NCBI GenBank assembly: GCA_025453925.1 | Contig: JALOPK010000270.1 | Coordinates: forward strand, 1-5,065 | Direction: 5' to 3' | DNA length: 5,065 nt | Origin: Candidatus Eiseniibacteriota bacterium | GTDB taxonomy: Bacteria > JAFGKV01 | Shown here: piece after piece, positions 382 to 5,065 of the stretch | Numbering within the stretch: the stretch's first letter is position 1 | Layout of the letters: every line of letters begins with the position of its first letter | Made by a program: the position numbers and the translations under genes | The notes under the pieces: generated by a model | Told to the model about the DNA's origin: nothing | What the model saw: the letters and a program-made list of their open reading frames with translations, nothing else | Database searches by the model: none

Positions 382-614
382 TCGAGCAGGGCCCTGCCCC
401 GCCCAGCCCAAGCCAGCCGATCTTGTGCGGGGCTGAAGACGCGGCGCTTCGTCCTGGGAGAAGCAGTTGGCCGCAAATGAACGCCAAATGATTCCACGGG
501 TTTCCTAAGACCTTCTCGGCACCCGGAAGGTGAGACGAACGCGAACGGTGTGTTCGGTGTGGGTAATAGTCAGCCCCTCGGGACAGGGGGTCCGCTCGGG
601 GGGATGGGCCGCAG

Positions 615-2676: not shown

Positions 2677-3052
2677 CCATGGGCATCGGAGTCGGCGAGC
2701 ATTGGCCACTTTAGTTATCGTCCTGGCGGTGGTCCTACGCGCATTGGACTCCGTGGCGGTCTGGGTTGGGCTGCCGTTGACCACGAGGGCCGCGCTCAGG
2801 ACCGCGGCCCTATTCGCGGCCGAGGGGCCGAGGATGTCGGCATCCTCATCGACCCACTCATGGTGGCGAGCGCCGAAGCTGCCGGCCGTGACGGCACTTT
2901 GAGCGATGATGATGACGAAGCCGGACCTAGCGATGGGTACCAGTCGCAACAGCTCATCCCAGGTCACCGCGGGCAGGGCGAAGTGCGGCAGGCCGCCAGG
3001 GACAGATCCGAGGGTGGCGATGCCAATGCCAAGGAAGTCGCAGGCGAAGCTT

Positions 3053-3058
3053 GCCGCA
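3053..3058. repeat. Target-site duplication, left copy (GCCGCA)
   Basis: This six-base direct repeat immediately abuts the left end of the inserted element at 3059. An identical GCCGCA abuts the right end at 3267-3272. Removing one copy together with the element rejoins SulP codons in frame (TTT GCG GCA AGC TTC on the - strand), which supports a true duplication. Confidence 0.75.
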
Positions 3059-3099
3059 GGGTGATTAGCGCCATGCCTCAGCCGGACCCAATGCGGCCT

Positions 3100-3124
3100 G
3101 TGGGAGTGGCGCCCTCGCCGCGCC
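3100..3124 (+). repeat. REP-like palindrome, left arm of the inserted element
   Basis: It begins GTGGGAG and continues into the hairpin region GGCGCCCTCGCC, in which a G/C palindrome closes on a CCCT loop. It matches the reverse complement of 3213-3237 at 23 of 25 positions; the differences are T for C at position 8 and C for A at position 24. The GTGGGAG head followed by a GC-rich imperfect palindrome is the layout of REP sequences in Pseudomonas-like genomes. Confidence 0.7.
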
Positions 3125-3212
3125 GCAGGATGCCGCGATCCTCGAACATGTGCGCCGCGCCAGCACACCGCGCCCGTCTGGGGCACCCGCTCTCCATCTG
3201 GAAGACAGCCCC

Positions 3213-3237
3213 GTCGCGGCGAGGGCGCCGCTCCCAC
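3213..3237 (-). repeat. REP-like palindrome, right arm of the inserted element
   Basis: Read on the - strand it begins GTGGGAGCGGCGCCCTCGCC. GCGGCG and CGCCGC form a perfect 6-bp stem around a CCCT loop. It faces the arm at 3100-3124 across about 88 bases, the arrangement called BIME or REPIN when both arms are REPs. Confidence 0.72.
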
Positions 3238-3266
3238 GGCAGGTTGAGCTTCGACGCTTATCGCCC

Positions 3267-3272
3267 GCCGCA
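3267..3272. repeat. Target-site duplication, right copy (GCCGCA)
   Basis: This is identical to 3053-3058 and directly abuts the element's right end at 3266. Together the two copies bracket the 208-bp insertion in the SulP gene. Confidence 0.75.
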
Positions 3273-4019
3273 AAGGCCCCCAGGACGAAGAACGCCATTG
3301 GGAGGCACGGCAGCAGGGAACGGGAGGAGAGGAGCAAACCCCCGACCAGCACCGCTGGGTACAGCGGGGACAGATGTACCTGCGGCGGGAGGAGCTCCCA
3401 GAACTGGCCGACGGTGTGTGGCGAGCCCACCGCGATGCCGAGTAGGCCACCCAGCATGGCGATACCAACCTGGACTCCCACCCCGGTCAGTAACCCGACG
3501 AGCACGGTGCACAACAGGGAATCGGCGAGGAAGCCAAGCCTGAAGATACGTGCCAACAGCAGCAGGCCCGCCGTGAGCAGGGCAACCACGGCGACCAGGT
3601 CCATGTAATGCGCGCTCTCGGTGGCAGCCATGCCGGACAACCCGCTGACGAAGTTGGGGGTGGTCGCCGAGTCCGCCGCCACCACCAAGTGCCGCGAGGA
3701 GCCGACGACCGCGAAGGCGACCAGGGGCAGGAACACGGTGTAGAGCCCGGTGACCACAGGCGTGCCAGCGATGCGCATGTAGCCGAGCACCTGGAGAATG
3801 TTCATGGACACCTGGGTGACGCCGCCCAGGGCATTGCGGAGCGCTCCGCGCAGGCACTGGGGCCGCAGGCCGTTGAATAGCCTCAGCCCCATCGCCAGAC
3901 TCCGGCACCGCCAACAGTACTTGCGGCGGACCGCCCGAGCGCGCTTCTGTGCCATCCTAGGCCCTGGTCCAATGCTTGCGGGTAGCGTCCGGACCAGCCA
4001 TCGGGTCGCCGGAATGTCC

Positions 4020-4895
4020 CTACTCGCCCGGCCCGGCATCGGCCGGGCTGGTTCCCCGGAACCCCTGCTCTTGTTCCGCCGCGTGGTACTTGGCGCGGAT
4101 CTGCGCCAAGTCTACCCGGGTCGGTGGGAGCTTGAGGTTCATATCCTCCATCGTGTCGACGATGATCCGGGAGATCGCGAGATTGCGAAACCACTTGTGG
4201 TTGGCGGGGATCACGTACCAGGGCGCGTGCTTGGTGCTGGTCTGCTCCAAGGCGTCCTGGTAGGCATCAACATAGTCGCTCCACAGTTCGCGCTCTGAGT
4301 AGTCCGACTCGCTGATCTTCCAGTTGCGCGCCGGGTCCTCTAGGCGCTGTTTGAAACGAGCAAGCTGCTCGTCGGGGCTGATGTGCAGAAAGAACTTCAG
4401 GATGCGCGTGCCGTTTTGCCTCAGGGTCCGCTCGAAGTCGTTGATCATCGTGTAGCGCTTGGACCACACCGACTTAGGCGCGAGCTTGTGCACCCGCACC
4501 ACCAGCACATCTTCGTAGTGCGAACGGTTGAAGATGACCACCTCCCCTTTCCCTGGTGTGCGCTGGTGGGCACGCCAGAGGAAATCGTGGGCGGCCTCGA
4601 TAGGGGTCGGCTGCCTGAAGCCGACGACCGCCGTCCCCTGCGGGTTCATGCCACTGAACAGGTGCCGCACGACGCCGTCCTTGCCGGCGGCATCCAGAGC
4701 TTGGAGCACGACGAGCAACGACTGCTCGGCGTTGGCGTAGAGGAGGTACTGGAGGGCATCCATGCGCGCAACATGCCTCTGGGTCTCCGCCAGTGCCTCC
4801 TCGCGGGACTCCGGCCCGCCGGTGTCGGAAGGATTGATCTTGGCCAGGCGGACCTTCTGGCCAGGCTCGACGACGAATTGCTTGCGGTGGTTCAT
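4020..4895 (-). CDS. ppk2: Class III PPK2 polyphosphate:nucleotide phosphotransferase
   Basis: The product has 291 residues, complete. PPK2 enzymes transfer phosphate from inorganic polyphosphate to nucleotides in the cytoplasm; class III members act on both AMP and ADP. The P-loop (Walker A) is ALDAAGKDG (residues 66-74), with Lys72. Walker B lies in VVIFNRSHYEDVLVVRVH (119-136). The lid region is around RLEDPARNWKIS (184-195), and WYVIPANHKWFRN (226-238) is the conserved C-terminal motif. Overall length and sequence closely recall the Meiothermus ruber class III enzyme. The frame extends to 4979, but the start at 4893-4895 (MNHRKQF) is chosen because it has GAGG seven bases upstream and matches the family's N-terminus. 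The class III substrate range is inferred from similarity. A hairpin lies in the last codons, and a repeat element begins about 85 bases upstream of the start. All expected motifs are present, so it should be active. Confidence 0.94.
   Translation of the reverse strand: MNHRKQFVVEPGQKVRLAKINPSDTGGPESREEALAETQRHVARMDALQYLLYANAEQSLLVVLQALDAAGKDGVVRHLFSGMNPQGTAVVGFRQPTPIEAAHDFLWRAHQRTPGKGEVVIFNRSHYEDVLVVRVHKLAPKSVWSKRYTMINDFERTLRQNGTRILKFFLHISPDEQLARFKQRLEDPARNWKISESDYSERELWSDYVDAYQDALEQTSTKHAPWYVIPANHKWFRNLAISRIIVDTMEDMNLKLPPTRVDLAQIRAKYHAAEQEQGFRGTSPADAGPGE
4029..4050. terminator. Strong hairpin in the last codons of ppk2
   Basis: GCCCGGC (4031-4037) pairs perfectly with GCCGGGC (4042-4048) around a four-base ATCG loop, extended by a wobble pair and a C-G pair. 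It lies inside the ppk2 3' end (stop at 4020-4022) and before the SulP relic. Without a following T-run it is more likely an attenuating or RNA-protecting structure than a full intrinsic terminator. Confidence 0.4.
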
Positions 4896-4980
4896 CTCGG
4901 CGCCTCGTGATGATAAACGGCTGGCCGTGCCCCGGCGCGAACTGTTCTGAGAGGATTTCGCGGAATACCCTGAGCGCAAA

Positions 4981-5065
4981 CAGTGATCGACGCCGAAGGC
5001 CAGCCGGCCGTGGCAGCGGCGCCCTCGCCGTGACCTGCCGTCTGCTAGAGGGGGAGCGGGCGCCC
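4981..5065 (-). mobile_element. Second, diverged copy of the 208-bp element, cut by the window end
   Basis: Read on the + strand from 4982, this aligns without gaps to the reverse complement of the first element from its right end (3265 inward). 19 of the first 29 positions match. In the REP-like 25-mer (5010-5034) 23 of 25 match; its first base is also the last of the 29. After a short unalignable step, 5040-5065 matches 21 of 26 positions down to about base 3181. The terminal repeat is poorly conserved (CAGTGATCGACG against GGGCGATAAGCG), so the exact end is uncertain. The strand given is opposite to the first copy's + orientation. It lies just upstream of ppk2, so it may affect that gene's transcription. 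Confidence 0.62.
5010..5034 (+). repeat. REP-like palindrome in the second element copy
   Basis: It begins GTGGCAGCGGCGCCCTCGCC and differs from the 3213-3237 arm (read on the - strand) at two of 25 positions: C for G at position 5 and T for C at position 22. The second change breaks one outer pair of the stem. It is the third member of this REP-like family within 2 kb. Confidence 0.7.

Follow-up and report, generated by a model that had tools for sequence, protein, structure and literature searches.

How does a short repeated element come to lie between a metabolic gene and the physical end of a bacterial contig, and what kind of element is it? The window considered here is the complete contig G000:C304 (5,065 bases), assigned to a Candidatus Eiseniibacteriota bin, and it carries one full-length copy of the element inside sulP and a second, truncated one upstream of ppk2, at its right-hand edge (Table 1). 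An earlier note, made from the letters of the window, had regarded the second copy as an older insertion of a dispersed element that might either provide promoter sequence for ppk2 or displace it. The evidence presented below indicates that this copy is most probably the right-hand end of an old, non-autonomous transposable element of purple sulfur bacteria, approximately 205 bp long: an IS1595-type MITE with an inverted REP pair (REPIN-like) in its interior.

Table 1. Annotated features of the window, with the basis of each assignment
Feature	Position	Strand	Basis
sulP (sulfate permease family) remnant, limits approximate	2750..3914	-	Pfam PF00916 on N part
Target duplication of copy one, left, TGCCGCAG	3052..3059	+	6/8 to right one
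Full-length copy one (206 bp) within sulP	3060..3265	+	HMM E 2.5e-47; boundaries
Left REP arm of copy one	3100..3125	+	Inverted pair 92% complementary
Right REP arm of copy one	3212..3237	-	Inverted pair 92% complementary
Target duplication of copy one, right, CGCCGCAA	3266..3273	+	6/8 to left one
ppk2, polyphosphate kinase 2	4020..4895	-	PF03976, 245 bits; ATG at 4895-4893
Predicted 8-bp target duplication of copy two, GCGCAAAC	4974..4981	+	Inferred from 8-bp register of other copies; partner would lie past 5065
Copy two, right-hand part of element (model positions about 122-205)	4982..5065	-	Alignment against shuffles; Lamprocystis-only HMM
Outer terminal inverted repeat of copy two, AGTGATCGACGCCGAAGGCCAGCC	4982..5005	+	17/24 to consensus end GGTGATTAGCGTCGAAGCTCAGCC
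Copy two, REP core (GTGG head plus GC-rich palindrome)	5010..5034	+	23/25 to copy one
Interior of element in copy two, up to last contig base	5035..5065	-	24/31 to Lamprocystis consensus

A Second, Diverged Copy at the Contig End

Copy two is inverted relative to copy one and cut off by the contig end. When aligned with the reverse complement of copy one, it is identical at 60 of 76 columns with one 1-base gap, and the alignment score is 69, whereas 2000 shuffles give no more than 30 and the remainder of the window no more than 26; a BLAST search within the same genome likewise pairs the two copies (79% over 76 nt, E about 1e-9). Independent support comes from an HMM trained on eight Lamprocystis copies only, which finds copy two at window positions 5059-4992 (envelope 5065-4988; model positions 128-195 of 199) with an E value of 4e-6, the best E value in the controls (the reversed window and 74 kb of other contigs from the bin) being 2.3 or worse. 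The existence of a second, diverged copy is thus borne out by both the 60/76 identity and the Lamprocystis-only HMM, with a small correction of its limit: the element had been proposed to start at 4981, and its outer end lies one base further in, at 4982.

The order of parts is that of the family, namely the outer end, the REP arm and then 31 bases of interior, and the similarity is unbroken up to the last contig base. The inner 26-base block had been counted at 21/26, a figure that is reproduced over 5040-5065 with a one-base offset, and the similarity reported for the 29 bases outward of the core also holds, with a count of 18/29 in a fixed register (4981-5009) in place of 19/29. Compared with the Lamprocystis sequences, copy two matches the consensus at 30/32 over 5003-5034 and is 83% identical to the copy on G098:C84 over 5003-5065. 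The 17/24 agreement of its outer terminal repeat has a p value of 1.6e-5 at a fixed place, and a score of 17 was also reached in 5/60 shuffles under a whole-window scan, so the end was placed by its aligned position and not by score alone. This position coincides with the family boundary and agrees with the full alignment; the first bases of the end are AG, not GG. Because the far end is missing, the conclusion that copy two is an insertion rests on homology.

Structure and Dispersal of the Element

The consensus forms one large inverted repeat, in which outer ends (GGTGATTAGCG......CTCAGCCGG) enclose 26-base REP arms and a variable center. Folded as single-stranded DNA, it reaches -81 kcal/mol (z -10.3). 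By definition, a REP opens with GT(A/G)G and continues into a GC-rich palindrome whose loop is short (PMC2817692), and the core of the element, GTGG-GAGCGGCG-CCCT-CGCCGC, conforms to this pattern. The high copy number expected of REPs is found in a Lamprocystis MAG (60 matches) and not in the window's bin.

When 84,980 species genomes were searched with a pattern of the core, they yielded 22 stretches, mostly from Chromatiaceae, 10 of which belong to this single Lamprocystis purpurea MAG (G098). Its 60 matches in all include eight instances of the ~205-bp unit, near-full or partial, together with many 42-nt REP half-units that often occur as inverted pairs. Among 210 Chromatiaceae genomes, G098 alone had the full unit with an E value of 1e-9 or lower (0/209 others), in a survey that scored three candidates per genome and may therefore have missed weaker copies. 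The bin itself contains no further copy, with core matches at the control level; no full copies were detected in 60 genomes of the bin's kin, no element was found in plasmids and viral contigs, and Rfam gave no match for it. The earlier proposal that the whole element, and not the REP core alone, is dispersed is supported by the near-full ~205-bp copies in G098 and their HMM matches, in which the similarity extends beyond the 25-mer. The element is small, multi-copy and without a transposase gene.

The same MAG also contains variants of the unit. L104:1501-1685 (G098:C92:5771-5955) is chimaeric, with a family-like left half, a different interior and a family-type right end, which suggests that the interior is exchangeable, and L178 and L180 display family-type ends around other interiors.

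Terminal Repeats, Target Duplications and the Split sulP Gene

The end motif of the element was detected in 23/210 Chromatiaceae genomes, and in three of them (G263, G200 and G169) it forms inverted pairs with a spacing of 1086-1101 bp, two of the three pairs being flanked by exact 8-bp repeats (AAATATTA and TTTTGAGA). The G263 pair, L208:1501-2586 (G263:C1:1065515-1066600), delimits an autonomous 1086-bp IS1595-family element, whose 313-aa protein matches the IS1595 family transposase model NCBIfam NF033547 with 180 bits (cut-off 75); four near-identical transposase copies are present in this genome. The MITE consensus shares about 24-27 bases with the G263 element at each end and no long stretch with its interior. 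A search for proteins close to the G263 transposase found none in G098 or in the window's bin.

Duplications of 8 bp are usual for the IS1595 family, and ends starting with GG also occur in Merlin, the related eukaryotic elements (PMC8101967). For four unit copies, the two flanks agree at 6, 6, 7 and 5 of 8 positions (24/32) when read in the 8-bp register, compared with an average of 2.35/8 and at most 4 between flanks of different copies (p about 2e-7 for the true pairs). The chimaeric L104 has flanks that match at only 3/8 in this register. A 6-bp duplication, derived from mixed offsets, had been considered and gave way to the 8-bp register when the link to IS1595 emerged.

Copy one lies within sulP. 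Removal of the copy and one duplication makes sulP read through again, and the flank-joined protein aligns with intact Chromatiaceae SulP (G122, G100) with no gap at the junction itself. The 8-bp duplications and the split gene show that the element inserts as a unit. Besides being split by copy one, sulP lacks its C-terminal part and is a pseudogene.

Because its ends match an IS1595-family element, the copies are flanked by 8-bp duplications and sulP is split, the element was assigned to IS1595-type MITEs with an inverted REP pair. It resembles IS1595-family insertion sequences and MITEs in its GGTGATTAGCG...CTCAGCC ends, shared with the 1.1-kb IS1595-transposase element, and in its 8-bp target duplications, but differs from the autonomous element in having no transposase gene and an unrelated interior filled by the REP pair. 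With the REPs and REPINs (BIMEs) of RAYTs it shares the GTGG head, the GC-rich palindrome, the two inverted copies and a high host copy number, whereas here the pair is enclosed in a larger unit that has DDE-type ends and 8-bp duplications, and no clear RAYT is present in the Lamprocystis MAG. Neisseria NEMIS/Correia and other bacterial MITEs (PMC3733652) are comparable in being short and non-coding, with terminal inverted repeats, strong folding and gene-adjacent insertion, but have other hosts and ends; any effect of the present element on a neighboring gene is conjectural. On this basis, an IS1595-type DDE transposase would recognize both ends and move the 205-bp unit in trans, with the REP pair travelling as a passenger. 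Copy two would have entered upstream of ppk2 by such transposition and drifted since; it is predicted to continue for ~120 bases past the contig end, with the partner of GCGCAAAC behind. The contig probably ends inside copy two because assemblers break at repeats.

Competing Explanations

The missing half of copy two leaves room for the view that one element end is joined to unrelated DNA just past 5065, as a fragment or chimaera. The far half does lie beyond the contig end, and the chimaeric L104 and the other-interior L178 and L180 provide precedents in G098; however, the similarity runs without a break to the last base, and we consider this reading rather unlikely. An assembly artefact, in which the contig end was joined to foreign repeat sequence, is scarcely credible. 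Its only attraction is that the match sits exactly at the contig end, whereas the two copies differ at 16/76 columns and copy two is 83% identical to the Lamprocystis copy over 5003-5065, and therefore is not a duplicate of the assembled copy one; moreover, its outer end falls at the boundary of the family.

A different question is whether the element is simply a REP doublet of the usual kind (REPIN/BIME) that a RAYT (TnpA-REP) tyrosine transposase has dispersed, with the similarity outside the REPs being incidental or hitch-hiked. The arms fit the REP definition, a GTGG head with a GC-rich palindrome (PMC2817692), full units in G098 are greatly exceeded in number by REP cores and 42-nt half-units, and related REPs occur about 150-720 bases from some Y1_Tnp genes in G099 and G100. 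A RAYT gene would be expected to be flanked by inverted REPs, and in G098 the search for Y1_Tnp gave only a weak fragment. Against this, the outer ends and 8-bp duplications are kept across copies, and the RAYT-related IS200/IS605-type transposases mobilize elements that have neither terminal inverted repeats nor larger target duplications (PMC2817692). A plain doublet is distinctly unlikely, and a purely RAYT-driven origin of the full unit was rejected on account of the conserved outer ends and the 8-bp duplications. RAYT activity likely does apply to single REPs and not to the 205-bp unit, and the single REPs and half-units in G098 and related genomes would be better explained by it. For the unit itself, including copy two, the IS1595-type MITE remains the preferred explanation.

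The ppk2 Neighborhood and the Age of Copy Two

The distance to the ppk2 start, given earlier as about 85 bases, is 86 bases between the ATG and copy two. This proximity, together with the very strong folding of the consensus, could point to recruitment of copy two as a ppk2 promoter, terminator or RNA hairpin. However, neither a sigma-70-like nor a terminator-like site was found in 4860-5065, which covers copy two and the 86-base gap, and such a REP is absent from all 30 other Chromatiaceae ppk2 loci examined (0/30); we regard recruitment as highly improbable. Most likely, copy two has no special role for ppk2 and is at most a hairpin upstream of the gene.

With regard to age, agreement with the Lamprocystis-only consensus over the comparable part is 63/75 positions for copy two (84%) and 77/82 for copy one (94%), while the Lamprocystis copies covering most of that part range from 81-97%, some being as diverged as copy two. 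That copy two is among the more diverged members fits the proposal of an older insertion, which is weakened by the equally diverged Lamprocystis copies. It is plausible, judging from these identities, that copy two is older than copy one.

Origin of the Contig

The contig belongs to a 502-contig, 82% complete bin, and several features point to another source. Its PPK2 is 57-62% identical to the closest Chromatiaceae relatives and 52% identical to the one from the genus of the bin, Thiorhodococcus mannitoliphagus has the same ppk2-sulP order, and the OmpA-like end and two further repeats of the contig match Lamprocystis. Tetranucleotide usage correlates at 0.737 between the contig and the rest of the bin, compared with 0.858-0.937 for the bin's own pieces. 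The contig probably comes from a member of the Chromatiaceae and was misbinned, which would explain the absence of other element copies from the bin. As to the additional repeats, window positions 454-549 form a further dispersed repeat, which more than 10 places in the Lamprocystis MAG match at about 73-82% identity, and the repeat-like stretch at 694-799 is 84% identical to G098:C66.

Implications for the Spread of REPs

The spread of REPs and REPINs is usually attributed to RAYT transposases. A REP pair within IS1595-type ends, flanked by 8-bp duplications, points to a second vehicle, which is also capable of breaking genes, as in sulP. IS1595-type MITEs and REPs are each already known, and a REP pair inside such a MITE would be a new combination; no description of one was found in the open-access literature, subscription journals being mostly outside this coverage. 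In two other Chromatiaceae, L224:1501-1663 and L220:1501-1662 are MITEs with the same end type and inverted REP-like arms of different sequence. Both escaped a scripted REP finder whose stem threshold was 6 pairs, their inverted arms being visible only by self-alignment, and this pattern is accordingly treated as a lead only. One possibility, somewhat less likely than not, is that IS1595-type MITEs of Chromatiaceae repeatedly carry inverted REP pairs, with the REP type varying by host, and that they offer a second, DDE-transposase route for REPs besides RAYTs. The locus also illustrates how a repeat may end a contig and how a contig may be placed in the wrong bin. More broadly, the element offers an example, open to testing, of one DNA segment shared by two transposition systems.
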